DNA from: Leucothrix pacifica
Lineage (GTDB): Bacteria > Pseudomonadota > Gammaproteobacteria > Thiotrichales > Thiotrichaceae
NCBI RefSeq assembly: GCF_003172875.1
Contig: NZ_QGKM01000038.1
Coordinates: 1 to 47,100 of the forward strand
Length of the DNA: 47,100 nucleotides
Direction of reading: 5' to 3'
Both the position numbers and the translations under genes were made by a program. Below the pieces are notes generated by a model. It was not told where the DNA came from and searched no databases. It saw only the letters and a list, made by a program, of their open reading frames with translations. The number at the start of each line of letters is the position of its first letter. Positions within the stretch are counted from its first letter, which is position 1. This document shows, piece after piece, positions 33,388 to 47,100 of this stretch.

Positions 33388-35574
33388 TCAGACCTGTGAT
33401 AAGGCTGCTCTGGCCGCATGAAGTTTCTTGTAACTCTCGATTAGCTTTTGATGTCTGTCCAAGCCCTCCAGTTTCATACTGGTTTTGGTTAGCCCGTAGA
33501 ATGTCAGTTCACTATTCACCGAAGCAACGACATTGGACATTAATTCCTCACCAAACATTCGTCTGAGATTGACAATATAATCTTCCAGCTCCAGCTCATC
33601 ATCCAAAGCAATTTCTAGCACCGTGTTAATGGCCTGATAGAACAATCCTCGCTCCACTGTATTATCATTGTACTGTAGAAATGCACCTACTAGCTCACTG
33701 GCTTCTTCTAACTCGCCAATCGCAAGACAAATGAGGATTTTCAGCTCCAGAATCGTGAGTTGCCCCCACACGGTGTTTTCATCAAACTCAATACCGATCA
33801 GTGTTTTGATATCGGTATAATGCTCAAGCTCACTGTCTTCCAAGCGTTCATAAAGCGCGACTAGTTGCTCATCATCTAAGGCATGAATATTTAGGATATC
33901 CTCACGGAACAGTAAGGCTTTATTGGTGTTATCCCAGATCAAGTCTTCAACCGGATACACTTCAGAATAATCAGGGACTAAAATGCGGCAGGCCGTTGCG
34001 CCAAGATTATCAAATACCGCAACATAAGACTCTTTGCCCAAGTCCTGCAAAATGCCAAACAGGCAATCACTCTCTTCTTCATTTGAACCTGAAAAATCCC
34101 ACTCACAAAAGTCGTAATCGTATCGCTTGCTAAAGAAACGCCAGGAAATCACACCGGTTGAATCAATAAAGTGCTCAACAAAGTTCTCAGGCTCAGATAC
34201 CGCTGCACTGTTAAACGTTGGTTTCGGCACATCATTTAAACCTTCAAAACTACGTCCTTGTAACAATTCCGTTAGGCTGCGCTCCAGAGCAACTTCGAAA
34301 CTAGGATGAGCTCCAAATGACGCGAACACACCACCCGTTCTTGGGTTCATGAGTGTGACGCACATCACAGGGAATTGGCCGCCTAAAGATGCGTCTTTTA
34401 CAACGACCGGAAAGCCCTGCTCTTCAAGTCCATTAATACCTGCAACAATACCGGGATATTTATCCAGTACCGCTTGTGGCACATCAGGCAATACAATCTC
34501 TTGCTCAATGATCTGTCGCTTCACCGCCCGCTCAAAGATTTCAGATAAACACTGTACCTGGGCTTCATGCAGATTATTCCCAGCACTCATACCATTACTC
34601 AGAAATAGATTCTCAATAAGGTTAGACGGGAAATAAACCGTTTCACCATCAGACTGTCGTACATAGGGAATCGAACAAATCCCACGCTCAGTATTGCCAG
34701 AATTGGTATCGATTAAATGCGAACCACGTAACTCACCATCCGCATTGTAAATACTCAGGCAGTAGTCATCCAAAATATCTGCTGGCAACTCATCATTCAG
34801 GCCGGGCTTGAACCATTTTTCATTGGGATAATGTACGAACTCAGCATTCGCAATATCTTCACCAAAATACTGATCATTATAGAAAAAGTTACAGTTCAAA
34901 CGCTCAATAAACTCACCCAGTGCTGAAGCAAGCGCACTTTCTTTACTTGCTCCTTTACCATTGGTAAAACACATTGGTGATGCGGCATCGCGGATATGCA
35001 GCGACCATACATTGGGAACGATATTACGCCATGAAGCAATCTCAATTTTCATCCCGAGATTAGCCAGAATCTCAGTCATATTTGAGATGGTCTGCTCAAG
35101 CGGTAAATCCTTACCAAGGATAAACGTGCTGGTATCGCTATCCGCATGTCCCATGAGCATTGCTTGGGAATCTTCATTAAGGTTCTCAACCGTTTCGATC
35201 TTAAACTCAGGTCCGGTTTGAACAACTTTCTTAACCGTACAACGATCTATCGACCTTAAGATACCTTCACGATCCTTATCCGAGAGACCATCAGGCAGTT
35301 CCACTTGTATCTGGAATATTTGGTTATAACGGTTTTCAGGATCAACGATATTATTCTGAGACAAGCGAATGTTCTCAGTCGGTATATTACGCGCCAAACA
35401 ATACACCCGAACGAAGTAAGCGGCACATAGCGCAGATGAGGCAAGGAAGTAGTCGAATGGACTCGGTGCTGAACCATCACCTTTATATCGAATAGGCTGG
35501 TCAGTAACCACGGTAAAATCATCAAACTTAGCTTCTAGTCTGAGGTTTTCGAGAAAATTGACGTTAATTTCCAT
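33388..35574 (-). CDS. ycaO: OsmC-YcaO fusion protein
   Basis: This 728-residue protein joins an OsmC-like domain (about 15-130, cysteines C50 and C112 at the peroxide-active positions) to a YcaO domain (about 185-560). The YcaO ATP-binding helices are recognisable as GEFIERLNC, SEIFERAVKR and ERSLTELLQGR. A helical C-terminal tail of about 150 residues resembles that of E. coli YcaO (586 residues, no OsmC domain), which assists RimO in beta-methylthiolation of ribosomal protein S12. No RiPP precursor or RiPP dehydrogenase is nearby, so a ribosome-modification role is more likely. The N-terminal fusion suggests a link between peroxide or thiol status and YcaO activity, which is inference. Confidence 0.87.
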   Translation of the reverse strand: MEINVNFLENLRLEAKFDDFTVVTDQPIRYKGDGSAPSPFDYFLASSALCAAYFVRVYCLARNIPTENIRLSQNNIVDPENRYNQIFQIQVELPDGLSDKDREGILRSIDRCTVKKVVQTGPEFKIETVENLNEDSQAMLMGHADSDTSTFILGKDLPLEQTISNMTEILANLGMKIEIASWRNIVPNVWSLHIRDAASPMCFTNGKGASKESALASALGEFIERLNCNFFYNDQYFGEDIANAEFVHYPNEKWFKPGLNDELPADILDDYCLSIYNADGELRGSHLIDTNSGNTERGICSIPYVRQSDGETVYFPSNLIENLFLSNGMSAGNNLHEAQVQCLSEIFERAVKRQIIEQEIVLPDVPQAVLDKYPGIVAGINGLEEQGFPVVVKDASLGGQFPVMCVTLMNPRTGGVFASFGAHPSFEVALERSLTELLQGRSFEGLNDVPKPTFNSAAVSEPENFVEHFIDSTGVISWRFFSKRYDYDFCEWDFSGSNEEESDCLFGILQDLGKESYVAVFDNLGATACRILVPDYSEVYPVEDLIWDNTNKALLFREDILNIHALDDEQLVALYERLEDSELEHYTDIKTLIGIEFDENTVWGQLTILELKILICLAIGELEEASELVGAFLQYNDNTVERGLFYQAINTVLEIALDDELELEDYIVNLRRMFGEELMSNVVASVNSELTFYGLTKTSMKLEGLDRHQKLIESYKKLHAARAALSQV

Positions 35575-36297: not shown

Positions 36298-37656
36298 CTA
36301 CAAGAACAAGGTCGCTAACCCAAGGAAACTCACAAATCCGATCACATCAGTTGCTGTCGTCAATACCACTCCACCGGCTAAGGCCGGATCAATGCCAATT
36401 CGCTTCATAAACATCGGAATACCAAATCCCGATAGCGCTGCGATTAACAGATTGATAATCATAGACGCCGCTAACACCAGACTAATCCGGAGATCGCTAA
36501 ACCAAAAATAGGAAACCAGCCCAACCACAACTGCCCAGGTCATGCCACTGATGGCTGATATCGCAATTTCTTTATATGCTAACCACTTAGCATTCGCTGA
36601 ACTGATTTTACCAGTGGCTAAACCGCGGATCATTAATGTCAGAGTTTGTCCTCCGGCAATACCACCCATACTGGCAACAATTGGCATGAGTACAGCCAAC
36701 GCGACAATTTTCTCAAGCGTTGCTTCAAACAGACCAATTACCCATGCAGCCAGAAAAGCTGTTACAAGGTTAATGCCTAACCAAAAGAGTCGCCGCTTCG
36801 CACTTGGCAATATCGGTGAAAATAGGTCTTCATCTTCATCTAAACCTACCGCGCCAAGGATTTGATGATCCGCTTCCTCATGAAGAATATCCACCATATC
36901 ATCCAGCGTGACGCGCCCTAAAAGTATGCCGTCATCATCAACCACCGCCACTGACACTAAGTCTAAGTCGCGAAACATAATCGCTAGCTCGTGTTGTGAT
37001 GCCAAAGGAGAGATATTTATCGCTTCCTTATCCATCACCTCTTCTACCAGCATGGACGGGTTATGTGTCAGCAAATCAGACAGGTGCAATTCCCCCTGAA
37101 ACGCCCTTTGTCTGTCAATCACCATCAGTCCTGAGGTATGAGCAGGGATTGATTCACGGCTGCGCAAGAAGCGTAATACCGTTTCCAATGTAATATCAGA
37201 ACGAATAGCCACTGCCTCGGTTTCCATCACACGCCCTGCCGAGTCCTCCGGAAACGCCAAACTCGCTTCCAAACCCTGCAGACCTTTATAGTCCAGCGAC
37301 TGACGAATCGCATCACCCACCTCATCCGGTAAAGTGTCAACCATTTCAGCCAGATCATTGCTGTCCAGATTTGACACTGCCTCAACGACCTGCTCATTCT
37401 CCAGATTATTCACCAGCGATAAACGAGCAACTTCACCTAATTCGACCAACACAGCACCGTTTCGGTCTTCCGGAATAATGGACCACAGCTGTCCACGCTG
37501 TGAATCCGGAATAGATTCCAGTAACCGCGCTATTTCACTGGCTTCGAGATCAGCAAAAAGCTCAATCAACACGTCTTTGTCGAAATCTTCCAGCGCTTCC
37601 AGTACTTCATCAATAAGCTCTGGCTCGTTAATTTTTAATTCAGGCGCTTCTGTCAT
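36298..37656 (-). CDS. mgtE: Magnesium transporter MgtE
   Basis: This 452-residue protein has the MgtE N domain (about 1-130, superhelical acidic repeats), two CBS domains (about 135-260) and five membrane segments (about 285-450). The pore region is seen as LMPIVASMGGIAGGQTLTLMIRG and the C-terminal LTTATDVIGFVSFLGLA. It is a Mg2+-gated channel, closed by Mg2+ bound to the N and CBS domains. The CorC/HlyC-domain gene lies immediately upstream on the same strand (34-bp gap), so the two are probably one transcript. Confidence 0.93.
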   Translation of the reverse strand: MTEAPELKINEPELIDEVLEALEDFDKDVLIELFADLEASEIARLLESIPDSQRGQLWSIIPEDRNGAVLVELGEVARLSLVNNLENEQVVEAVSNLDSNDLAEMVDTLPDEVGDAIRQSLDYKGLQGLEASLAFPEDSAGRVMETEAVAIRSDITLETVLRFLRSRESIPAHTSGLMVIDRQRAFQGELHLSDLLTHNPSMLVEEVMDKEAINISPLASQHELAIMFRDLDLVSVAVVDDDGILLGRVTLDDMVDILHEEADHQILGAVGLDEDEDLFSPILPSAKRRLFWLGINLVTAFLAAWVIGLFEATLEKIVALAVLMPIVASMGGIAGGQTLTLMIRGLATGKISSANAKWLAYKEIAISAISGMTWAVVVGLVSYFWFSDLRISLVLAASMIINLLIAALSGFGIPMFMKRIGIDPALAGGVVLTTATDVIGFVSFLGLATLFL

Positions 37657-37690: not shown

Positions 37691-38038
37691 TTAGGTTGTT
37701 ACAAAACGTATTTGAATATCGCCGGCACGAAATTTTTTAATATTCAGCACCAGAAAGCTCAGGCCATTGACTACAATTTCGTCACCAGGGTTAGGAATCC
37801 GTTTCAGTTCTTTCAGTAATAAATCATCAATGGTTTTAATCTCACTACCAACATCCAGATTGATCCCTGTCATTGCTTGCAAATCCGTCAACTTAGCAGA
37901 ACCATTACTCACCCAATGATCCACACTCCAGCTTGTTGACCTGCGCTTATCTGAGGGAGCGACATTGTCATTTCCGACATCATCTTTACCTGATACTCCC
38001 GGAATCATGCTAACGGCTTTCTTTATGAAACCATTCAT
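37691..38038 (-). CDS. Small soluble CorC/HlyC (transporter-associated) domain protein
   Basis: This is a 115-residue protein. Residues about 40-112 form a CorC_HlyC domain, ending ELKRIPNPGDEIVVNGLSF and FRAGDIQIRF, usually found at the C terminus of CorB/CorC/HlyC-type proteins after CBS domains. There is no CBS pair or membrane DUF21 part here. I chose ATG 38038, with AAGGAGCTGATCC upstream; an earlier ATG at 38125 would overlap the promoter motif at 38066-38100. It is 34 bp upstream of mgtE. The promoter motif is shared with the sigX-region genes, so I infer SigX-type control of this gene and perhaps of mgtE. Confidence 0.7.
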   Translation of the reverse strand: MNGFIKKAVSMIPGVSGKDDVGNDNVAPSDKRRSTSWSVDHWVSNGSAKLTDLQAMTGINLDVGSEIKTIDDLLLKELKRIPNPGDEIVVNGLSFLVLNIKKFRAGDIQIRFVTT

Positions 38039-38065: not shown

Positions 38066-38100
38066 TACTATTTGGAGTGTTGCCACTAGCCAAAAGTCAC
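38066..38100 (-). promoter_or_regulatory. SigX-type promoter motif, copy A (CorC/HlyC-domain gene)
   Basis: On the minus strand GTGACTT (38100-38094), 15 bases, then ACTCCAAATAGTA (38078-38066). The second block matches CGTCTAAGTAGTA at 9 of 13 positions. It is about 28 bases upstream of the gene's ATG. Confidence 0.6.
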
Positions 38101-38166
38101 ATTTTTTGATGCTATCCACCGGCATCTTTTTAAATTAAATATTTCTTCAAAAAATTAAAAATAAAT

Positions 38167-38201
38167 GTGACTTACGCTCCACAGCGCTCGTCTAAGTAGT
38201 A
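38167..38201 (+). promoter_or_regulatory. SigX-type promoter motif, copy B (relic rhodanese gene)
   Basis: GTGACTT (38167-38173), 15 bases, CGTCTAAGTAGTA (38189-38201). The -10 block is identical to that of copy C. It is divergent from copy A, 66 bp apart, and leads into a decayed gene. Confidence 0.6.
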
Positions 38202-38409
38202 TAAGCCAGGAAAATAGCTGTTGAACAACTAACTTATGATTGAGAATTTAAAGTCGCAAGCAATGGTGTGTTGCTGCATCAAGCGCAACCTCTGTTAGAC
38301 GGCATGGAAGGCTGGACTTAATAATATTTGAGCGTAAATCCCGTCACATATCAGCAACGTAAGATGTTGTACCTTTACCTCGACAGAGCAATCGGTCGGG
38401 GTCTTTTTT
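38202..38409 (+). pseudogene. Decayed, internally deleted copy of the exported rhodanese-fold gene at 42950
   Basis: The stretch keeps the promoter-proximal end, the last codons and the terminator of the 42950-43438 gene and has lost the middle. Upstream it follows GTAGTA-x2-GCCA-AAAAT-GCT as the intact copy does, and the motif at 38167-38201 is near identical. At 38292-38321 the codons give LLDGMEGWT then TAA, against LLGGIEGWSK then TAA in the intact copy. Then GTAAGATGTTGTA at 38359 begins a shared tail, ending in the related hairpin. A 20-codon remnant ORF (38236-38298) runs out of frame into TAG. The deletion removes roughly 120 codons of body. Confidence 0.75.
38377..38409 (+). terminator. 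Terminator of the relic gene
   Basis: ACCTCGAC (38377-38384) pairs with GTCGGGGT (38395-38402), one T-G wobble, then TCTTTTTT. It is homologous in sequence to the hairpin at 43493. The gap 38410-38538 holds nothing else clear except the start region of rimK. Confidence 0.7.
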
Positions 38410-38538
38410 AATTTGATAAGATCGAATTCCGTAAAGCTCTCAACATGAACTGAAAGCGTTTTGATTATAGTTATACACTGCGCCGAAACTAACCCTGACG
38501 CATAAATGAATACCCAATACTTAGCCAAGGATCCTACT

Positions 38539-39444
38539 ATGAAAGTTGCAATTTTATCCCGAAACAAGAATCTCTACTCAACACGTCGCTTAAAAGAAGC
38601 AGGTGAAGCGATGGGGCATGACGTTGATATTATTGATACGCTGCACTGCTACATGGACATTACCAGTAGCCGCCCAGCTGTTCGCTACCACGGTAAAGAG
38701 TTGCCAGAATATGATGCGGTTATTCCACGTATTGGCGCTTCAGTAACATTTTACGGTACAGCGGTAGCGCGTCAGTTTGAAATGATGGGTACGTTTAACA
38801 TCAATGAATCTGTAGCGATCAGCCGCTCACGCGACAAGCTTCGTTCTTTGCAACTACTTTCACGAAAAGGCATCGGTTTGCCACGTACAGGTTTCGCGAG
38901 CAAGTCAGACAACGTAAAAGACTTGATCAAGAACGTCGGTGGCGCACCGGTTGTTATCAAGCTACTTGAAGGTACTCAAGGCATTGGTGTGGTACTTGCA
39001 GATACGGCGAAGTCAGCTGAAGCAATCATCGAAGCATTTATGGGCTTGAAAGCGAACATCTTAGTTCAAGAGTTCATTAAAGAAGCGGGTGGTGCAGATA
39101 TTCGTTGTTTAGTGGTTGGCGGCAAAGTGGTTGCAGCGATGAAGCGTCAAGGTGCAGAAGGCGAGTTCCGTTCTAACCTACACCGTGGTGGCTCTGCGGA
39201 AGTGGTGAAGCTAACTAAGGAAGAGCGTGAGACAGCGGTCAATGCAGCGAAAGTCATGGGCTTGAACTTGTGTGGCGTGGATTTACTTCGTTCACAAAAT
39301 GGCCCAATGGTGATGGAAGTAAACTCTTCTCCAGGTTTGGAAGGTATTGAGAAAGCAACAGGTAAAGATGTTGCGAGCATGGTATTCCAGTTCTTAGAAA
39401 AAAATGCAAAGCCACACAGCACAAAAACACGTGGTAAAGGCTAA
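38539..39444 (+). CDS. rimK: Ribosomal protein S6 glutamate ligase
   Basis: This 301-residue ATP-grasp enzyme (E. coli RimK is 300) adds glutamates to the C terminus of ribosomal protein S6. The N-terminal domain begins [18 protein letters not shown]; the ATP-grasp core includes [16 protein letters not shown] (ATP), the metal-binding [13 protein letters not shown] near the C terminus, and the substrate loop around [23 protein letters not shown] at 38539 follows AAGGATCC; an upstream ATG at 38506 adds 11 residues with no family match. It is the first gene of a three-gene operon with a deacylase-family protein and RimB. Confidence 0.95.
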
Positions 39445-39461
39445 TAAATAGAGACAGTGTT

Positions 39462-40484
39462 ATGAGTACATTACGAATTGGTGATTTTGACATACTACCC
39501 GGTGAGCAGCGTAAAATAAACTTGCCTGTTGCAAAGCTATATACCGATGCCAGCGTGTCATTACCAGTACATATTATTCGTGCAAAAAATCCGGGGCCGA
39601 CGATTTTTATTAGTGCGGCGGTTCACGGTGATGAGCTAAACGGAATTGAAATTATTCGCCGTTTAATTCGTCAGAACAAACTTAGCATCACTAAAGGCAC
39701 TGTTATCGCTGTCCCAATGGTGAATGTTTATGGTGTTGTGAATCAAAGCCGCTATATGCCTGATCGTCGTGACTTGAATCGTTACTTTCCAGGTTCAGCA
39801 AAAGGTTCATTGGCAGGGCGTGTGGCGCATATCTTTATGAAAGAGATTGTGGCGCACTGCAACTACGGTATCGACTTGCACACGGGGGCGGTTCATCGTT
39901 CAAATCTGCCACAGATTCGCGCGGATATGAATGACCCGGAAACCAAAGAACTAGCGGAAACCTTTGGTGTGCCTGTGGTGCTGAATTCGAATTTAGTTGA
40001 TGGCTCATTGAGAGAAGCAGCAGTTGAAAAAAACACCAAAATCTTGCTTTACGAAGCGGGGGAGGCGTTGCGTTTTGATGAGTTTTCTATCCGTGCGGGT
40101 ATGAAAGGCATCATCAATGTGTTACAGCACTTAGGTATGAAGCGTCGCAGTAAATCCAAGAAAAAAACGCCTTTCATTGCCAATGGCAGTCAGTGGGTCA
40201 GAGCCAATGCGAGTGGTATTGTGAACAACATTGCAAACTTGGGTGACCAGATTACTAAAGGTCAAGTGCTTGCTGAAATCGGTAGTCCCTACGGTGAGGT
40301 GCTTGATAACGTGATCGCTACGCGCTCAGGTATTTTGATTGGTAAGCAGAATATTCCGTTGGTGCAGGAAGGTGAAGCCATGTTCCACATTGCCTACTTT
40401 GATGCGGATGATGAAGAAATTGCCGAACAAATTGAAAATATCCAGGAGTCATTATTGCCTGACTTGGCAGATAGTAGGTACTAA
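39462..40484 (+). CDS. Succinylglutamate desuccinylase/aspartoacylase-family zinc hydrolase
   Basis: This 340-residue protein belongs to the M14-like AstE/AspA group. The zinc site is readable: H55 and E58 in AAVHGDELNGIEI, and H140 in YGIDLHTGA. The substrate-binding RDLNRYFPG lies at 103-111, and a C-terminal domain of about 100 residues includes ITKGQVLAEIGSPYGE, a lipoyl-like barrel. The family removes acyl or aminoacyl groups from amino acids. It is 17 bp after rimK and 3 bp before rimB, so it is plausibly a glutamate-trimming enzyme linked to S6 modification; that is inference from context. Confidence 0.85.
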   Translation: MSTLRIGDFDILPGEQRKINLPVAKLYTDASVSLPVHIIRAKNPGPTIFISAAVHGDELNGIEIIRRLIRQNKLSITKGTVIAVPMVNVYGVVNQSRYMPDRRDLNRYFPGSAKGSLAGRVAHIFMKEIVAHCNYGIDLHTGAVHRSNLPQIRADMNDPETKELAETFGVPVVLNSNLVDGSLREAAVEKNTKILLYEAGEALRFDEFSIRAGMKGIINVLQHLGMKRRSKSKKKTPFIANGSQWVRANASGIVNNIANLGDQITKGQVLAEIGSPYGEVLDNVIATRSGILIGKQNIPLVQEGEAMFHIAYFDADDEEIAEQIENIQESLLPDLADSRY

Positions 40485-40487
40485 AGA

Positions 40488-40925
40488 ATGAAGTTTGAAA
40501 ACAAAACAATTATTGGGCGCTTAGAGTCGATCGAATTGCCCGAATTTAACATTACTGGCCTTGATGTACGCGTAGATACCGGCGCAAAAACATCGTCACT
40601 ACACGTTGATAATCTGGTAAAAAGCACTATCAACGGTCAGCCGACAGTGACCTTTGATTTGCACCCAGACTCGTACGACGTCGAAAAGATTGTGAAATGC
40701 GAGGCGCCAATTAGTGATATTCGCAATGTGAAGTCTTCTAATGGTAAAGCAGAGCAGCGTTACGTGATTCAAACGTTGGCCAAACTCGGCTCATTAGAAT
40801 GGCTGATTGAAATCACACTCACAGATCGTTCCGACATGAGTTACCTCATGTTACTTGGACGTGAAGCGCTGGGTAATCAGTTCTTAGTTGATCCTTCAAA
40901 ATCATTCTTAGGTGCGGTCAAGTAA
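40488..40925 (+). CDS. rimB: RimB-type retropepsin-like protease
   Basis: This 145-residue protein is a single retropepsin-like domain of the DUF785/RimK-associated type. The catalytic motif is VDTGAKTSSLH, with D30 in the D-T-G-A turn, and MLLGREALGNQFLVDP lies near the end, as in the family. In Pseudomonas fluorescens RimB is the partner of RimK and RimA in controlling S6 glutamylation. It is 3 bp after the zinc hydrolase gene and ends before a bidirectional hairpin. Confidence 0.9.
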   Translation: MKFENKTIIGRLESIELPEFNITGLDVRVDTGAKTSSLHVDNLVKSTINGQPTVTFDLHPDSYDVEKIVKCEAPISDIRNVKSSNGKAEQRYVIQTLAKLGSLEWLIEITLTDRSDMSYLMLLGREALGNQFLVDPSKSFLGAVK

Positions 40926-40938
40926 CATCCAAACTAAA

Positions 40939-40973
40939 AAGCGGCACCTGCGCATTTAGCATGTGTGCCGCTT
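40939..40973. terminator. Terminator between rimB and mscS
   Basis: AAGCGGCAC (40939-40947) pairs perfectly with GTGCCGCTT (40965-40973). On the minus strand TTTTTAG follows the stem, so it fits the mscS transcript best. On the plus strand only CTT follows. Confidence 0.75.
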
Positions 40974-41000
40974 AGATTATCACGAAAAGACGACACACGC

Positions 41001-42716
41001 CTAGGCAATTGCAGAGTTATGGAACGTCACCTGCGGAAACGGAATTTCCCAATCAAACTCAGAGGCTGCATCCACACAATAGCGCTGCAAAGTACGCCTC
41101 AAACGATTGTAAATATCGGCAGCATCACCCTTAAAATCGGCAATGACGACTAAGTCCAATGATGAGTCATTCGCTTTAGCAAACTCAACATTGAGGTTTA
41201 ACAAAATCTTGTCATAGTTTTCATCTGTTAAGCGCTTTTCCAGATAGGCTTTCAACTTTGCTGGTGCCTCAGTTGTCACCATTTTTTGATTATTGTAACT
41301 AATCCCAAGCAGCTCTTTAATTCTAAAATTAAGCGATAAATTTTGTGGAGATGCATCAAGGAAGTTACTCAAGGTATACGTACATCGCGCTCCACCGCGT
41401 TGGATTAATTCAATCAGCTCAAGTGAAATTCCAATGACTTTACCTCTGGTACCATCCGACAATATGACCCAATCTCCTCTCTCACAAGGAAACCAAGGCT
41501 CATTGGTATGGCATGGGCGTGAATTCAAACCGGTTAGTTCACGCAGTTTCACACGCTTGGTGAGGTTGGCTCTGGGGTTATAGAGCGTTGTGAACAAGTT
41601 GATATTTTTCACTTCCCAAGGCAATCCATCCATCAGGATACGCTCACCTTCACGCACAGAACCGATATTTAGAAATATCTCTATTTGATGCCAATATCTA
41701 GGGATCGCCTCACGCAGGCTAAAAGCAACTCCAATCAATAACAGTATACTTAAAGTAAACAATACCCAGTCTTCGAACAGGTAAAAAACTAACATTGGCG
41801 CTAACACCGTCAGTATAATCGTTACTGTACGATGTAATAAATCGATCACTCTGAATCGCACACTGCGGTTTTCCTTTTGATAACCTTTAAGCGTTAAGGT
41901 GAGGAATCGATGAACCAACTTTGATGCTAGCAATATCAACAGCAAAGCACCAACTGCCTTTAAGAGAACCCATGCTCGTTTCTGGAAAAAAGTTTTCAGA
42001 TAACTAGGCGCATTTTCTTCACGGATTTTTTCATCTAATATGTATTTTTCAAGCTGCAACGTTGCTGCGCTTCGCTCCGTTTCCAAGCTGTCTAAACGCT
42101 GCTGCCATCGAGCTTTGAGCTTCGACAAATGTGACTTCAGCTCACCACTTTCGGCTTCAGCTTCAAGCTGTTTTGTGTTTTCAATTGCGGTTTTTACAAC
42201 AGGAATACGTTTATTAACAAACTCAATTCTTTCTCGTAATTCAGCCTTAGCTCTGACATCACTCGTCAGATGATTCATTTCTTTAAGAGTGGGCTCCAAA
42301 AGAGAAAAGAACTCTCTTTCAAAATTAAACGTCTCCTCTTTTACCGACCGGAGAATACTGATATCAGTACTTGCAGCAAGATTCTCTATATTGGTAGCAG
42401 TATCCTGAGCCTCTTTTACCTTGTCAGCCAAATCAAGGTTGAGTTGTGCTTTTTCGGAGTCAGAAGTTGCACTTTTAAGTAAACCACTCAGCGCTTTTAT
42501 TTCTTTATCGATCAGTGTTTTTTGTGTAAGCAGAGACGTTAAGGTATCGATCGTCGTCGGCTCTGTGGAGGCAACGGTTTCAGTAACTTCAGTAGCAGGT
42601 TGAAAAATGGCAGTATCAGAAGAATCTTCAGCGATTGATGGGATCGTTAGCAACCATGACAACCACAGTAGTATGATAACTCTGAGATAAATATTATGCA
42701 CAATGATTTTCCCCAC
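41001..42716 (-). CDS. MscS-family mechanosensitive channel with long coiled-coil N part
   Basis: This 571-residue protein has a signal peptide (core VIILLWLSWLLTIP, cleavage near IAE). A helical extracytoplasmic region (about 30-225) with coiled-coil character (KLKARWQQRLDSLETERS) follows, then four to five membrane segments (about 235-345). An MscS beta and C-terminal alpha/beta part (about 350-560) includes GERILMDGLPWEVK and GDWVILSDGTRGKVIGISLELIE. It relieves osmotic pressure. The start is GTG at 42716 with a poor ribosome site; GTG at 42701, with GGGGAAAA before it, is an alternative. It is convergent with rimB. Confidence 0.83.
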   Translation of the reverse strand: MGKIIVHNIYLRVIILLWLSWLLTIPSIAEDSSDTAIFQPATEVTETVASTEPTTIDTLTSLLTQKTLIDKEIKALSGLLKSATSDSEKAQLNLDLADKVKEAQDTATNIENLAASTDISILRSVKEETFNFEREFFSLLEPTLKEMNHLTSDVRAKAELRERIEFVNKRIPVVKTAIENTKQLEAEAESGELKSHLSKLKARWQQRLDSLETERSAATLQLEKYILDEKIREENAPSYLKTFFQKRAWVLLKAVGALLLILLASKLVHRFLTLTLKGYQKENRSVRFRVIDLLHRTVTIILTVLAPMLVFYLFEDWVLFTLSILLLIGVAFSLREAIPRYWHQIEIFLNIGSVREGERILMDGLPWEVKNINLFTTLYNPRANLTKRVKLRELTGLNSRPCHTNEPWFPCERGDWVILSDGTRGKVIGISLELIELIQRGGARCTYTLSNFLDASPQNLSLNFRIKELLGISYNNQKMVTTEAPAKLKAYLEKRLTDENYDKILLNLNVEFAKANDSSLDLVVIADFKGDAADIYNRLRRTLQRYCVDAASEFDWEIPFPQVTFHNSAIA

Positions 42717-42865
42717 TCGTTCATGTCGTATTTGTTGTTGGTAAATTGTACCTTATCCTCAAGGAAAAACAGGAACTAAAAATCTGTCTTTTTGGTTCGC
42801 GATGATGACCTTTAATAAACTCATTAATCACATTCAATCTTACCGTCAAAAACATTTGAAAATTT

Positions 42866-42900
42866 GTGACTTCCAGCCTGAAGCATTCGTCTAAGTAGTA
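42866..42900 (+). promoter_or_regulatory. SigX-type promoter motif, copy C (exported rhodanese-fold gene)
   Basis: GTGACTT (42866-42872), 15 bases, CGTCTAAGTAGTA (42888-42900). It lies about 50 bases upstream of the ATG at 42950 and is preceded by an A/T-rich run, as are the other three copies. Confidence 0.65.
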
Positions 42901-42949
42901 CGTGCCACAAAATGGCTTTGTTAAAACTTTTAAATATCAAGGAAGTAAA

Positions 42950-43438
42950 ATGAGAATTAAAAACTTATTATCTATTGCAGCTTGTGCTGCATTGTTAAGT
43001 ACTGCAGCAGTTTATGCAGAGAGCCACTCAGAAGTTAAAGGTGACTCAGATGATGCTGAGCAGACACGTGTAATTAGCGATACATCAATCGCGATTTACT
43101 CTCAGAACCCGTACATTCAAAGCGTGATGGAAAAAACGACCCACATTAAGGCGGATCGTCTTAAAGAGATTTTGGAGCGTGGTGACGAGATCCTTCTGCT
43201 TGATGTTCGTCCACGTAGCGAATTCGAGGCTAAGCCAGGTATTGAAGGTACAGCGATGAATATTCCACGTAACTTTCTGGAAGTAGAAGCTTATGAAAAA
43301 CTACCAGACCAAGATGCGTCAATCATCATTGTTAGTTCAAAAGGTATTCGTGGCGGACTGGCTGCAAATACACTACAGGCAATGGGTTACACCAATGTTC
43401 GTAACTTGCTAGGCGGCATCGAAGGCTGGAGCAAGTAA
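42950..43438 (+). CDS. Exported rhodanese-fold protein lacking the catalytic cysteine
   Basis: This 162-residue protein has a Sec signal peptide (MRIKNLLSIAACAALLSTAA, cleavage near VYA). The mature part has a single rhodanese fold: LLLDVRPRSEFEAKPGIEGTAMNIPRN, then IIIVSSKGIRGGLAANTLQAMGY, ending LLGGIEGWSK. Rhodaneses use Cys in C-R-x-G-x-R; here the position is S129 in VSSKGIRGG. The only cysteine in the whole protein (C12) lies in the signal peptide, so the exported form cannot be a sulfurtransferase. ATG at 42950 has CAAGGAAGTAAA before it, and the signal peptide starts there. The upstream promoter motif suggests sigma-factor control. Confidence 0.85.
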   Translation: MRIKNLLSIAACAALLSTAAVYAESHSEVKGDSDDAEQTRVISDTSIAIYSQNPYIQSVMEKTTHIKADRLKEILERGDEILLLDVRPRSEFEAKPGIEGTAMNIPRNFLEVEAYEKLPDQDASIIIVSSKGIRGGLAANTLQAMGYTNVRNLLGGIEGWSK

Positions 43439-43492
43439 TATCGTTTCAAAGCGATCTAGTAACAAATCCGTGAAGTAAGATGTTGTATCTTT

Positions 43493-43527
43493 ACCCCGGC
43501 AGAGCAATCCACCGGGGTCTTTTTTTG
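43493..43527 (+). terminator. Terminator of the rhodanese-fold gene
   Basis: ACCCCGG (43493-43499) pairs with CCGGGGT (43512-43518), then CTTTTTTTT. The loop and preceding GTAAGATGTTGTA are shared with the hairpin at 38377. Confidence 0.8.
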
Positions 43528-43601
43528 CCTGGAAATCAGGTTTGTGAACAATGAATCCTTTCTCTGTCACAAACCGTTTAGTTAGGCATAATTCTGATGA
43601 A

Positions 43602-44456
43602 TCAATCAGAATCAGATGCAATTTTAATCACCTGTTGATACAAACTTGAATTTGGAATTGACATATTCTGATCATCCTCCAAGCTAATAATGGTGCTCAA
43701 AGCCCCTACTTCGCTCACCACGCCAGTGACACCATCCACTTCAATCACATCGCCCTGGCCAAATTGCTCTCTGGCATAGATTCCACTGAGTAAGTTATGC
43801 GCCACTTCTCGTGAGCCAAGCCCAACTGCCACCGCTAGCATTAACATCATTCCGCCCACAACGAGCATGATAATGTTATGCAGCAAGACCGTTTCAATGT
43901 CCAACTGCTCTAAGGCAACCAGCACGATCACCGTGACCATAATGCCGTAGACCAAATTCCCAAGCGTCTTAGCAGAATTTGACCCTATGGTAGATGGCTT
44001 CTCCATGATGGTACGGCGTAAGAATTGCGAGAACATCATACCGAAGATAATGATAACTAGTGCGGTGATGATTTTTGGCAGGAAGCCAATAAAGCCTTTG
44101 AATAATTTTACTAATTCGGTGAGTCCAAGCATGTTGGCCGCAGGAACCAAGAAGACGAACAAAACCATCCAGAAGATGATTTTTCCGGCAAATATCGAAG
44201 GTCGCTTGACCATGCCAGCATCTTGCATCACCTCAGAGACACCCGCCTTATTACTAATCCTGTCTAAACCCACACGACGCAATAAAGTCTGGCTGATCTT
44301 TTTAAAGATCATTGCCACGATAATGCCTAGTATCAGGATAAGTAGTGCACCTATGAGATTGGGTAAAGACGAGATGATCGCTGACCACTGAGCGGTCAGG
44401 TTCGACACCACTGATGCTTGTAATTTTTCAAAATCTATCATGGTACTGAAGTCCAT
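43602..44456 (-). CDS. cmpX: CmpX-like small MscS/TM_helix membrane protein
   Basis: This 284-residue protein has several membrane segments (about 30-55, 88-110, 120-145, 165-185, 190-215). A short MscS-like beta domain follows, with LLSGIYAREQFGQGDVIEVDGVTGVVSEVGALSTIISLEDDQNMSIPNS (positions about 225-270). The TM_helix repeats plus small beta domain match Pseudomonas CmpX, encoded beside sigX. It lies 22 bp after the small CfrX-like gene and is the last gene of the operon. It is likely to influence membrane tension sensing or ion balance that feeds into SigX. Confidence 0.8.
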   Translation of the reverse strand: MDFSTMIDFEKLQASVVSNLTAQWSAIISSLPNLIGALLILILGIIVAMIFKKISQTLLRRVGLDRISNKAGVSEVMQDAGMVKRPSIFAGKIIFWMVLFVFLVPAANMLGLTELVKLFKGFIGFLPKIITALVIIIFGMMFSQFLRRTIMEKPSTIGSNSAKTLGNLVYGIMVTVIVLVALEQLDIETVLLHNIIMLVVGGMMLMLAVAVGLGSREVAHNLLSGIYAREQFGQGDVIEVDGVTGVVSEVGALSTIISLEDDQNMSIPNSSLYQQVIKIASDSD

Positions 44457-44478
44457 TATTATTGGTTCCGCATAGTAA

Positions 44479-44703
44479 TCATCGATGCTTCAGGAACAAC
44501 TTAGCTATGCTATTAAATAGCATGTACATGGCTGTAATGAGCGCACCGAAAAAAAGAATAATGTCACGCAGAGCGAGCTCATGGAGCCCTCTGCTTAGAA
44601 TGTTATTAATCCGTGATCGTGAAGATTGCTTGGATGCTACAGAATTGTATTTAAATAGTCGTTTTATATAAGTTTCAAGCTGTTGCTTATCCTGATCACT
44701 CAT
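44479..44703 (-). CDS. cfrX: Small single-helix membrane protein, CfrX-like, candidate anti-sigma factor
   Basis: This is a 74-residue protein. Residues 1-40 are polar, basic and predicted cytoplasmic; one hydrophobic helix (about 47-66) is followed by LKHR. Its ATG overlaps the sigX stop by 4 bases (ATGA), so the two are translationally coupled, which is a classic sigma/anti-sigma arrangement. In Pseudomonas the gene between sigX and cmpX, cfrX, encodes a protein of similar size that is proposed to act on SigX. Gene order and size match; I cannot confirm sequence homology by eye. No zinc-binding anti-sigma motif is present. Confidence 0.65.
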   Translation of the reverse strand: MSDQDKQQLETYIKRLFKYNSVASKQSSRSRINNILSRGLHELALRDIILFFGALITAMYMLFNSIAKLFLKHR

Positions 44704-45281
44704 GTGCAGTACTTCTCATGAAGCTTTTTGAACTTCTCTAAGGTGCGGTAGAAGGACATTTTGGTGGCACTGAGCTTTTTCCCGAGTACTTTAGCAATGT
44801 CCTCAATGGATAACTCGCTGGTGAACCTGAGAAGAATGACATCACGTTCATCATCTTTGAGCTTACCAATCACACTTTGCACGCAATTGCGGTCATCGTC
44901 CTCTTCCAGCTTATCAGCAGTATTCGCAGACTCGTCCTCATAATTTTCAGAGAAGTCATCATCACCATATTCATGAAACTGATTAAAACGCTGTGTTTTG
45001 CTGAGTAAGGTTTTACAGTGATTGATGGCAATACTAAACAGCCAGGTCTTAAAGCTGGATCGGAATTCAAACGTTGGAAGTGTGTGAAACACTTTCATAA
45101 AGACTTCCTGAGTCGCATCTTCAGCATCACTGTCTATAGACAAATACCGGCGGCACATGGCGTATACCGGCTTTTGATAACGCTTAACCAGTTCTTCATA
45201 ACTGGTCGCATTGTAAGGTAACTCTTCTTGGGATTGACGAACCAAGGCATCATCATCAAGGTTAGAAATAGCTATAGTCAT
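44700..45281 (-). CDS. sigX: ECF RNA polymerase sigma factor, SigX-like
   Basis: This is a 193-residue ECF sigma factor. Region 2 (about 25-95) contains YEELVKRYQKPVYAMCRRYLS and DAEDATQEVFMKVFHTLPTFEFRSSFKTWLFSIAINHCKT (as segments), and region 4 (about 140-188) contains DDERDVILLRFTSELSIEDIA and GKKLSATKMSFYRTLEKFKK. The start LDDDALVRQSQEELP and KLSATKM closely resemble Pseudomonas SigX. An acidic linker of about 40 residues lies between. It is followed by cfrX and cmpX, and preceded by the outer-membrane barrel gene across a 141-bp gap with a hairpin. The gene itself shows no copy of the 35-bp promoter motif. Confidence 0.88.
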   Translation of the reverse strand: MTIAISNLDDDALVRQSQEELPYNATSYEELVKRYQKPVYAMCRRYLSIDSDAEDATQEVFMKVFHTLPTFEFRSSFKTWLFSIAINHCKTLLSKTQRFNQFHEYGDDDFSENYEDESANTADKLEEDDDRNCVQSVIGKLKDDERDVILLRFTSELSIEDIAKVLGKKLSATKMSFYRTLEKFKKLHEKYCT

Positions 45282-45379
45282 GAATTACTAAAACAGAGGG
45301 GAAATTGGCAGCAACTAATTAATCTGAAAGCGAGTATACAGTAACTAAATTGCTTTTTACCAACCCCCCTCCGTAAAAC

Positions 45380-45410
45380 AGCGAAGGGTTAGGGGAAGGA
45401 ACCCTTCGCT
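45380..45410 (-). terminator. Hairpin between the barrel gene and sigX
   Basis: AGCGAAGGGTT (45380-45390) pairs perfectly with AACCCTTCGCT (45400-45410), 9-base loop, followed on the minus strand by GTTTTA only. It could end the barrel transcript, or allow partial readthrough into sigX. Confidence 0.6.
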
Positions 45411-45422
45411 ACTAGTTACCGC

Positions 45423-46613
45423 TTAACGTAAGCGGTAACTCACCCCCATGTTAAGTGAAGTATCAACATCGTCATTACCATTATTAGAAATGCCGTCGTC
45501 AACTTTTAATGCCTTAGCTGTCAACGTTAGATCTAACTGATTATCCAGGTAATAACGGAACGTTGATGACAAAGCATTGCTGGTAACGTCTTCAATTGCA
45601 CTGTCGCCAGACTTGCTATAGTCCAACAGCCATGAATTTTCCCAGTCAATTTTATCTGTTAATTCATGAGTTAATGTCAATGCATTGTTTACCTGATAAG
45701 CAGCATCACCATCACCATAAATTGTCGACAAGCTAGCTACGTTAGATAGCTGTGTGCTGTTATTTAACGGACGGTGGTATTCAGCACCTAAATCCAGTGA
45801 AGGATCACCACCATCAGTTCCATCATAGTTACTGATAACTGCACCTAGACCAGCACGTACTAACCAGCCGTATTTACGAGTAGAGATAAACTCATTTTGT
45901 AAAACATCACTAGTCTTGATGACCGCACCTGCACTCATTGTGCCGTTGATTTGACCGCTACTTACTAATGCTTTTTCAATATCAGTAATCCACTGCTGAT
46001 CATAACTGGCCGCACCATACTTACTCTTGTACTCGCTTTCACGAGAAATGATGTTTGCTACTTGCTGATACGTTGCTTTTGAAGGATCTGCTTTCAAAGC
46101 GCCTTGTGCACGTAACGCTTCCATCAAGCGAATCGCTTTAGCCATTGGCGTTACGTTGACAACGCGACCGTAACCTAAACCGACACCTACTTTTGCGAAT
46201 GGGTCTTCAGCATCTTTTTTCACGCCAGCATCCGCAGAACCATACCAAAATGCGCCTTTAGAACCAGGACGGAAATAGTTATCAGCAGTTACGCTACCAT
46301 TAACGATGTAGTTACTGGTAGACCCAACACCTTTGGTAGTACCCCGGTTTACAGAACCTTCAGCTTGTAATTTAGTGCTGATATTGCGGTTAGGGCTGCT
46401 ATAAACGCGGTCTAAGTCTAAAGACAAGTCTGCGTTGTAGCCTGATTGACCTTGATTACCATCAGTAGCGCTGAACTGACCTGTGATATAGGCATCTTCG
46501 TACGAGCTAGTGGCTTCAGTGTAGTCGTATAAAGTAACTTCAGCAAAACTCATGCTGCTGACTGAAAACAACGCTGCAGAGATTGCAGTAGCTAGTTTGG
46601 TATTCGATTTCAT
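45423..46613 (-). CDS. Outer-membrane beta-barrel protein with helical insert
   Basis: This 396-residue protein has a Sec signal peptide (MKSNTKLATAISAALFSVSS, cleavage after SFA). The N-terminal mature part (25-150) and C-terminal part (247-396) show alternating polar and hydrophobic strands with frequent Y, L, D and N, as in barrels. Between them lies a helical insert (152-246) with AKAIRLMEALRAQG, QQVANIISRESEYKSKYG and WITDIEKALVSSG. The last residues are VSYRLR, not the usual terminal F or W. I do not recognise the family. It lies upstream of sigX, as oprF lies downstream of sigX in Pseudomonas, and its promoter carries the shared motif. Confidence 0.75.
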   Translation of the reverse strand: MKSNTKLATAISAALFSVSSMSFAEVTLYDYTEATSSYEDAYITGQFSATDGNQGQSGYNADLSLDLDRVYSSPNRNISTKLQAEGSVNRGTTKGVGSTSNYIVNGSVTADNYFRPGSKGAFWYGSADAGVKKDAEDPFAKVGVGLGYGRVVNVTPMAKAIRLMEALRAQGALKADPSKATYQQVANIISRESEYKSKYGAASYDQQWITDIEKALVSSGQINGTMSAGAVIKTSDVLQNEFISTRKYGWLVRAGLGAVISNYDGTDGGDPSLDLGAEYHRPLNNSTQLSNVASLSTIYGDGDAAYQVNNALTLTHELTDKIDWENSWLLDYSKSGDSAIEDVTSNALSSTFRYYLDNQLDLTLTAKALKVDDGISNNGNDDVDTSLNMGVSYRLR

Positions 46614-46653
46614 TTAATTAATTCCGATTTCTGTAAATAAAAATTGTTGCTCT

Positions 46654-46688
46654 TGTTACTGAGACTTAGCACGAGAACCGAAAGTCAC
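46654..46688 (-). promoter_or_regulatory. SigX-type promoter motif, copy D (outer-membrane barrel gene)
   Basis: On the minus strand GTGACTT (46688-46682), 15 bases, then AGTCTCAGTAACA (46666-46654). The second block matches copy C at 9 of 13 positions. It is about 41 bases upstream of the gene's ATG. Confidence 0.65.
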
Positions 46689-46725: not shown

Positions 46726-46945
46726 TCATGAAAAAGTTTCGGGTACAGGCGGAATCAGCACAAGCTTCCCTGTAAATTTCTTGGCTAAGAACTCTGTCTG
46801 AGCTTCTGCTATTGCCGATAGAGGATAGGTTTTGGCGACAAGAGAACGTATTTTACCACGCTTTAACAGATCCAGCAACACAGGCCATTTATCACCCAGG
46901 GCAATCGCTTGAAACCACCCAAGGAAATTAGGCATAAAGGAAGCT
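46726..46945 (-). pseudogene. 3' remnant of an MDR-family alcohol dehydrogenase/quinone oxidoreductase
   Basis: The last 70-75 residues of an MDR protein are readable in one frame ending TGA at 46726. They include FLGWFQAIALGDKWP, LLDLLKRGKIRSLVAKTYPL and KKFTGKLVLIPP, the C-terminal catalytic-domain ending. The N-terminal two-thirds and the Rossmann domain are absent. Upstream the frame runs into the IS left end, and the plus strand starts a transposase at 46961. The junction lies near 46935-46960; I cannot place the IS end exactly. The IS insertion is the likely cause of truncation. Confidence 0.75.
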
Positions 46946-46960
46946 TTTCGGAGTCCCGCT

Positions 46961-47100
46961 ATGTCCAAGTCCCTGAACAAGCTTCTGGAGTGTCTCGAGT
47001 CACTTAACGATCCTCGTCAATCCTGGAAGGTTCTTTACCCCTTAGAGGAGGTCTTGCTAATCGTCCTTGCAGCCACTGCAAGTGGTGCTGATGATTTTGT
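46961..47100 (+). mobile_element. ISAs1-family transposase, 5' end (cut by window edge)
   Basis: ATG at 46961 opens a frame to the window end: LLECLESLNDPRQSW, then VLYPLEEVLLIVLAATASG and ADDF. This is the N-terminal DDE_Tnp_1-associated domain of ISAs1 (H-repeat-like) transposases, whose pattern is L-x-DPR, hydrophobic helix, then C/SGAD. The terminal inverted repeat is not identified. The transposase body continues beyond the window, so activity cannot be judged. Confidence 0.8.

Follow-up and report, generated by a model that had tools for sequence, protein, structure and literature searches.

Four copies of a bipartite motif, A to D, lie around a sigma factor gene in Leucothrix pacifica, within the 47,100-nt stretch of DNA that we analysed (the window). 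Judged by sequence, these sites very probably serve as promoters for a SigX-like ECF sigma factor whose gene lies within the same 9 kb, as the original prediction had it. We conclude this because the sites are conserved, are positioned before genes and depend on the sigma gene being present. The motif, found at all four sites, consists of GTGACTT, 15 bases and a block around [C/A][G/C]TC. TTGTGACTT would serve as the -35 element and [C/A][G/C]TC as the -10 core, with 15 bases between them. The features are listed in Table 1.

Table 1. Features around the four motif copies (bits: score with the matrix built from relatives).
Feature	Coordinates	Strand	Basis and remarks
mgtE magnesium transporter	36298..37656	-	MgtE, CBS, MgtE_N; TIGR00400 above its cut-off
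CorC_HlyC-domain protein, 115 aa from ATG with ribosome-binding site	37691..38038	-	Pfam CorC_HlyC; start read from sequence
Candidate promoter A	38066..38100	-	Ahead of CorC-domain gene and mgtE; sequence; 23.0 bits
Candidate promoter B	38167..38201	+	Ahead of rhodanese relic, rimK farther downstream; sequence; 21.9 bits
3' remnant of rhodanese gene, hairpin and T run	38293..38409	+	92/122 bases aligned to 3' end of copy C
Candidate promoter C	42866..42900	+	Ahead of intact rhodanese-like gene; sequence; 21.2 bits
Exported rhodanese-fold protein, catalytic cysteine replaced	42950..43438	+	Rhodanese domain
CmpX-like mechanosensitive channel, 284 aa	43602..44456	-	MS_channel_1st_1 and MS_channel_2nd (Pfam)
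CfrX-like small protein, 74 aa, one predicted membrane helix	44479..44703	-	Hydropathy 2.03 over 19 residues
SigX-like ECF sigma factor, 193 aa	44700..45281	-	Sigma70_r2 and r4_2; PRK09640; tree
omp, putative outer-membrane protein, 396 aa	45423..46613	-	Signal peptide by eye
Candidate promoter D	46654..46688	-	Ahead of omp; sequence; 32.2 bits

A sequence check placed the four copies at the coordinates and on the strands originally predicted, and the first block and the 15-base spacing, claimed to be invariant, were identical in 4/4 copies. B and C have CGTCTAAGTAGTA as their second block, A has ACTCCAAATAGTA and D has AGTCTCAGTAACA; common to all four are only TC and a later A-R-T-A. By hand count, the end of the second block is 27 bases from the start codon at A (ATG at 38038), 49 at C and 40 at D, and B has no intact gene downstream. 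Promoter D is followed on the same strand by omp, sigX, the 74-aa gene and the cmpX-like gene. The D site occurs at the same position in the relative G003, and the A site at orthologous positions in relatives.

In the window, GTGACTT-N15-CGTC matched twice (B and C) against 0.04 expected. A genome-wide scan had been named as a check, and GTGACTT-N17-TC-NN-ARTA gave four exact matches in the 5,022,804 bases (5.02 Mb) of the genome, all of them A-D, while the same pattern backward gave one. Because the pattern was written from those four sites, the exact count by itself is not independent evidence, which the comparisons with relatives do provide. Allowing one mismatch raised the total to 19 (15 extra); the backward control gave 21, and the extra matches therefore look like background. 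A sigma-70 promoter scan gave 8 matches, fewer than the 18.2 in shuffles.

We also scored the window with a matrix made from relatives only. It was built from 36 of 56 loose matches at 17 loci (13 neighbourhoods plus four others), leaving out L045, which repeats L044. The sites kept were those before sigX, omp, CNNM/CorC, mgtE, rhodanese, rimB or a large membrane-protein gene, and two of the 20 dropped matches (L049, L050) do precede CNNM-like genes. The spacing was 15 in 35 of the 36 sites (14 to 16 allowed), and part of the conservation in the matrix is built in, since its sites were hand-picked by gene position from matches with TGACTT and TC fixed. With this matrix A-D ranked first to fourth at 21 to 32 bits, and the fifth site reached 11.7, a gap of 9.5 bits. 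Two more high-scoring sites lie beyond the window in the L. pacifica genome: one precedes an omp paralogue on a different contig, the other is at a contig edge; the description of the regulon as local was thus too narrow.

B and C belong to one duplicate, as predicted, with 53/74 bases shared around the motif and 92/122 at the 3' end including the hairpin. The intact copy encodes a protein whose active-site loop reads S-[ST]-K-G-I-R in 8/8 homologues, so the catalytic cysteine of an active sulfurtransferase is absent from it. The mature proteins contain no cysteine, as had been claimed, but the claim does not extend to the precursor, which has one within the predicted signal peptide. B would be the ancestral rhodanese promoter stranded before a decayed gene. 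Its decay appears to be a recent loss, because an intact rhodanese gene adjoins mgtE in G006, a member of the same genus. B may in addition still work, by read-through into rimK or by making an RNA of about 200 nt that ends at the hairpin, which would add to the main explanation. We regard this as possible but rather unlikely. B scores like C, the hairpin folds well (-13.6 kcal/mol, z -3.98) and is followed by TTTTTT, and G416 and G418 have a site before rimB, as G298 has before rimK; on the other hand, a consensus terminator scan reported neither B's nor C's hairpin, and the intact gene in G006 points to a recent loss without demonstrated conservation.

The sigma protein is a short chain that combines sigma-70 regions 2 and 4, as ECF sigma factors do (Sigma70_r2, E 6e-17; Sigma70_r4_2, E 5e-9). 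Its best NCBIfam model was SigX PRK09640, at 141.6 bits, under the curated equivalog cut-off of 194. In the tree the sigma of the family was weakly joined to Pseudomonas-type SigX (88/50, with the bootstrap not settled and long branches) and stood apart from the family's RpoE-like paralogues, "RpoE-like" being our reading of the rows. The SAxKM motif in region 4.2 was present in 14/14 family sigmas and 8/8 Pseudomonas-type SigX proteins, and in 2/69 other ECFs.

Comparison of promoters in related genomes, a check proposed with the original prediction, showed that the motif tracks the sigma gene. The strict motif occurred in 12/14 family genomes with this gene and in 1/49 without it (Fisher p = 4e-10, which ignores kinship). 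In the neighbourhoods of 13 relatives, every one of the 31 strict matches faces sigX, omp, CNNM/CorC, mgtE, rhodanese, rimB or a large membrane-protein gene. Intergenic position was scored for 29 of them; the other two fell within an ORF only because its mechanically called start was too far upstream, and they were kept in the count. The predicted regulon, comprising an outer-membrane protein, the rhodanese-fold protein, a CorC/HlyC-domain protein next to mgtE and the dead rhodanese copy, is borne out in that the motif faces these targets in relatives, but the set was incomplete by a few more genes, and the CorC gene before mgtE corresponds there to a full-length CNNM-CBS-CorC protein. A site lies directly upstream of sigX in 11/13 relatives. 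Autoregulation is expected of an ECF sigma factor.

The sites could instead be promoters or operators of another factor, an RpoE-type ECF or a DNA-binding regulator, with sigX merely a target. The one exception without detectable sigX, G015, carries such sites, and 12/12 rechecked sigX-negative genomes carry other ECF genes. We consider this reading improbable, as the motif tracks sigX and yet the same 12 genomes keep RpoE-like ECFs (77-90 bits). That the sites are a recently dispersed repeat, or cluster by chance, is barely conceivable, even with B and C inside a duplication: as predicted, their spacers differ (6/15 bases common against 20/20 in both blocks by hand count, with block limits set in knowledge of the match), other genera show the same arrangement, and in 200 shuffles of the window the fourth-best score was reached once.

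Promoters of the SigX-like factor thus remain the preferred reading, and the genes behind sigX resemble those of the Pseudomonas SigX (ECF102)-CfrX-CmpX-OprF system. A 4-base overlap joins the start of the 74-aa gene to the stop of sigX. Its product had no Pfam or NCBIfam match, and homologues occupy the same place in 13 relatives. As a possible CfrX homologue it has the same place and a similar length, and it aligns only weakly with the G196 protein. The CmpX-type channel adjoining the sigma gene is kept in 13/13 relatives.

Like Pseudomonas SigX, the sigma here carries SAxKM and has as neighbours a CfrX-like protein, an MscS-family channel of CmpX type and a gene for an outer-membrane protein; a magnesium-type transporter is nearby (CorA-type in G196, mgtE here). 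Unlike it, the sigma scores below the curated cut-off and has a weakly supported sister position, omp has no OprF or OmpA domain (the neighbour in G196 differs, and OprF is not the neighbour here), and the probable targets also include rhodanese, CNNM/CorC and mgtE. The predicted membrane helix is clearer in the 74-aa protein than in CfrX (hydropathy 2.03 against 1.41); CfrX is described as soluble in an excerpt of PMC8999054. In the Pseudomonas-type genus the spacer varies by up to 2 bases, in contrast to the near-fixed 15 here. The strict form is not enriched there: of 21 genomes, G196 alone contained TGTGACTT-N14-CGTCTA at up to one mismatch (2 matches against 42 for the backward control), because the spacer after TGTGAC is 16, 17 or 18 bases. 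TGTGAC-N16-18-CGTC precedes cfrX in 20/21 genomes, L230 being without the element, and no clear element was seen by eye before sigX or oprF in this genus. A passage of PMC7641640 describes the P. aeruginosa cfrX promoter region as SigX-dependent.

RpoE/AlgU systems also combine an ECF sigma, envelope targets and a bipartite promoter with a near-fixed spacer. Their -35 element is GGAACTT, as opposed to TGTGACTT here. Besides the separate position of the sigma in the tree, they differ in that the gene adjoining the sigma here has no Pfam match and no RseA/MucA-like neighbour was recognised.

As a mechanism, the small CfrX-like protein, whose translation is presumably coupled to that of sigX, would sit in the membrane and hold the sigma there, and the membrane state, perhaps via the CmpX-like channel, would release it. 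These sensing steps are tentative, with somewhat less than an even chance, and a portion of PMC10965496 counts against them, reporting that cmpX overexpression in P. aeruginosa left sigX and cfrX expression unchanged. Free sigma would then act at three sites. At D it would increase transcription of omp, some of which would run on into sigX and the next two genes; at A it would do so for the CorC-domain gene and mgtE, and at C for the gene of the inactive exported rhodanese-like protein. The label envelope stress is carried over by analogy from Pseudomonas SigX.

A wider picture, unlikely to hold in all its parts together, is that a SigX-type sigma runs an envelope module well beyond Pseudomonas, coupling membrane tension to divalent-cation transport (CNNM/CorC, MgtE). 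The conserved inactive periplasmic rhodanese-like protein would be a non-enzymatic sensor or chaperone, and the code TTGTGACTT-N15-[C/A]GTC would come from an ancestor common with Pseudomonas SigX. In this strain, orphan B and its hairpin would turn a dead gene into the source of an RNA of about 200 nt that depends on SigX, or else would feed rimK.

The SigX promoter consensus in P. aeruginosa was called "not precisely defined" in a section of a 2020 study (PMC7641640), and a SigX logo was published in 2015, according to an extract of PMC4362757; we do not claim the consensus as new for P. aeruginosa. Among the matches listed in our literature search, titles and abstract beginnings gave no account of such a regulon outside Pseudomonas. 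A motif that tracks a SigX-like gene in one family and resembles the cfrX element provides a definite consensus that can be tested. How CfrX- and CmpX-like proteins control the sigma could be read out through the recurrent targets (CNNM/CorC, MgtE, inactive rhodanese, uncharacterised outer-membrane protein).

The omp product had no Pfam or NCBIfam relative and no meaningful PDB match (best E 0.12), and its AlphaFold model from the single sequence was unusable (mean pLDDT 38.9). The repeat between omp and sigX is not called a terminator, because it folds no better than usual (z -0.53). Homologues of omp adjoin sigX in 9 relatives. Among plasmids omp had no match, and searches with the sigma (553 records) and the rhodanese (82 records) returned distant relatives only, all below 60% identity.

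The original prediction placed four copies of one bipartite motif around a SigX-like ECF sigma gene, and all four were found as claimed when read from the sequence (sites A to D in the table). In the organism's own assembly (5,022,804 bases, 146 contigs) the pattern GTGACTT-N17-TC-NN-ARTA matched perfectly at these four sites, and once when read backwards; this count is a non-independent test because the pattern was derived from the sites themselves. With one mismatch allowed there were 19 matches in total versus 21 in the backward control, so the extra matches resemble background.

Motif copies, regulon genes and further features; window coordinates except for the C78 site
Feature	Position	Strand	Remark
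Site A	38066-38100	-	GTGACTT-N15-ACTCCAAATAGTA; before CorC-domain gene and mgtE
Site B	38167-38201	+	GTGACTT-N15-CGTCTAAGTAGTA; before rhodanese relic
Site C	42866-42900	+	GTGACTT-N15-CGTCTAAGTAGTA; before intact rhodanese-like gene
Site D	46654-46688	-	GTGACTT-N15-AGTCTCAGTAACA; before omp
Rhodanese relic	38293-38409	+	3' remnant
CmpX-like channel gene	43602-44456	-	
CfrX-like gene	44479-44703	-	74 aa
sigX	44700-45281	-	SigX-like ECF sigma gene
omp	45423-46613	-	putative outer-membrane protein gene
rimK, succinylglutamate-desuccinylase-like gene, RimB-type zinc-protease gene	38506-40925		between relic and second half of regulon
728-aa protein	33388-35574		OsmC-YcaO fusion by appearance (by eye)
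Fragment like zinc-type dehydrogenase	46726-47100		adjoins apparent ISAs1-type transposase start (both by eye); right edge of window and contig end
Site L191 (contig C78)	151-177		faces a membrane-like protein's reading frame

Sigma-gene neighbourhoods were retrieved from 13 relatives. A loose pattern (TGACTT and TC fixed, block spacing of 14 to 16 bases) matched 56 times across these neighbourhoods and four additional relative loci; the 36 matches lying upstream of genes of interest went into a matrix, own-genome sites being excluded. Conservation of the fixed letters is built in by construction; TTG 5' of TGACTT, T 3' of it, the G of GTC and the A after GTC were conserved though unfixed, and the spacing, unfixed within 14 to 16, was yet 15 in 35 of the 36 sites. 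The matrix ranked A-D first to fourth in the window (32.2, 23.0, 21.9 and 21.2 bits; the fifth had 11.7). Across 200 first-order Markov shuffles best scores averaged 10.3, and a single hit reached 21.2.

The strict pattern TGTGACTT-N17-TC, which sites with an altered -35 would escape, matched the own genome 22 times versus 6 in the backward control. Seven of the 22 scored above 20 bits with the relatives' matrix, A-D among them. A 26.5-bit site on contig C70 lies upstream of an omp paralogue (72% identical), and a 23.0-bit site is intergenic at the edge of contig C78, where the next gene is truncated by the contig end. The frame facing the C78 site has a TTG start and, by eye, a ribosome-binding site, and is a candidate further regulon member. 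A 20.9-bit match on C67 sits within an ORF and is probably due to chance. The regulon, predicted to be local, is indeed concentrated in the window but, given the C70 and C78 sites, is not confined to it.

In the 13 neighbourhoods all 31 strict matches faced a small gene set, as judged from tblastn positions and downstream ORFs: sigX (9), omp (9), CNNM/CorC (5), rhodanese (2), rimB (2), a large membrane-protein gene (2), mgtE (1) and a small CorC-domain protein (1). Coding sequence, as counted, makes up 81-96% of those stretches, yet 29 matches scored intergenic; the other two were inside mechanically over-extended ORFs. The large membrane protein (571 aa in the window) had no Pfam match over cut-off and looks MscS-like by eye only. 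CNNM, CBS and CorC_HlyC domains were found in the two CNNM proteins run against Pfam (L044 and L148), the remainder being named from similarity or N-termini. Counting looser matches (TTTGACTT in G014 and G030), a site is directly upstream of sigX in 11 of the 13 relatives. In G003, where omp stands ahead of sigX just as it does in the window, the site is upstream of omp; the G006 contig stops within omp. Second omp loci (L213, L215, L216 and L218) had no looser-pattern site before omp, the single match in L213 being elsewhere in the locus. A SigX-type site also stands before rimB in G416 and G418 and before rimK in G298.

The sigma protein was detected in 14 of 63 family genomes (E <= 1e-30) and the pattern TGTGACTTT-N15-GTC-NN-A in 13 of 63: 12 of the 14 sigma-positive versus 1 of the 49 sigma-negative genomes (Fisher p = 4.3e-10, kinship uncorrected). 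The two sigma-positive genomes missing the pattern, G414 and G417, have CTC or ATC in place of GTC. The sole sigma-negative exception, G015, carries such sites in both orientations in the rhodanese-mgtE interval (L158); it had no ECF above 77 bits against the sigma profile and no looser-pattern match near its omp, and its sigX may be absent from the assembly or recently lost. In a recheck of 12 of the 49 sigma-negative genomes the best profile score was 90 bits. On the evidence of sequence comparison, the motif is genuine, promoter-like in placement and tied to this sigma.

The rhodanese-fold protein carries a signal peptide, and its nearest solved chain is 6mxv, from a rhodanese-like family protein (E 1.3e-16). 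A sulfurtransferase role is very improbable, because S-[ST]-K-G-I-R replaces the catalytic-cysteine loop in 8/8 homologues. An intact rhodanese gene is divergent from CNNM/CorC in G003, G010 and G016, with mgtE after CNNM/CorC in G003 and G016 and rimK after rhodanese in G010 and G016. The window retains the relatives' gene order around CNNM/CorC, mgtE and rimK, but its rhodanese there is reduced to the relic, which aligns with the intact copy at C in the promoter surroundings and the 3' end with its hairpin only. Sites B and C share 20 of 20 bases in the two blocks versus 6 of 15 in the spacer (p = 7e-5), by a hand count with block limits picked knowing that they match. This fits either a promoter selected during most of the time since duplication or a recent death of the gene.

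The window sigma has Sigma70 regions 2 and 4 and, among NCBIfam models, scores highest with SigX PRK09640 (141.6 bits, under the cut-off of 194). A tree of 98 rows held the 14 family sigmas, 8 Pseudomonas-type SigX, 8 other SigX-model matches, 28 ECFs of sigma-negative family genomes and 40 of at least 80 generic ECF loci. Family sigmas grouped with four rows from other families (100/96) and joined Pseudomonas-type SigX weakly (88/50; bootstrap not settled). The region 4.2 motif SAxKM was present in 14/14 family sigmas, 8/8 Pseudomonas-type SigX, 5/7 other SigX-like rows and 2/69 other ECFs, these two (L059 and L077) being tree neighbours of the SigX rows (98/81). The sigX stop and the 74-aa gene share a 4-base overlap; the 74-aa product has a predicted membrane helix, and the CmpX-like channel gene is next. 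The P. aeruginosa counterpart set is SigX (ECF102), CfrX, CmpX and OprF, and PMC8999054 describes CfrX as a putative anti-sigma factor belonging to a proposed mechanosensing complex.

In genome G196 the genes run CorA-type gene, cfrX-like gene, cmpX, sigX, oprF; we label its genus Pseudomonas-type on the strength of a sigma above the SigX cut-off (365.7 bits) and the presence of an OprF-domain protein. In strict form the motif showed no enrichment in this genus. Upstream of cfrX, 20 of its 21 genomes have TGTGAC, 16-18 bases (16 in 1, 17 in 7, 18 in 12) and CGTC; counted the same way, the window motif has a spacer of 17. In 19 of the 20, 17-19 bases separate the element from the downstream ribosome-binding-site GAGGT. 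A SigX-dependent cfrX promoter region, with ~8% activity remaining in a sigX mutant, is reported for P. aeruginosa H103 in PMC7641640, which maps the start to -208, also gives a 13-nt 5'UTR, and says of the consensus for SigX that it 'remains not precisely defined'. A 2015 study (PMC4362757) derived a SigX logo.

Cation-transporter genes recur near SigX-like genes, in the window, in G298 (L148), where two of the four looser matches point at CNNM and rimK, and in the G196 locus as the CorA-type gene. L149, L138 and L139 (the last two just 3.5 kb long), which belong with L148 to one sister group, had no motif match, and a role of the SigX-like module in ion balance is therefore offered as a suggestion. 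We propose that the sigma would recognise the sites directly, the GTGACTT-side block serving as -35 and the second block as -10, with possible read-through from omp into sigX. The 74-aa protein may act as anti-sigma factor, and sensing could proceed via CmpX or the membrane state. A simple CmpX switch is spoken against by a P. aeruginosa report in which sigX and cfrX expression was unchanged on cmpX overexpression (PMC10965496).
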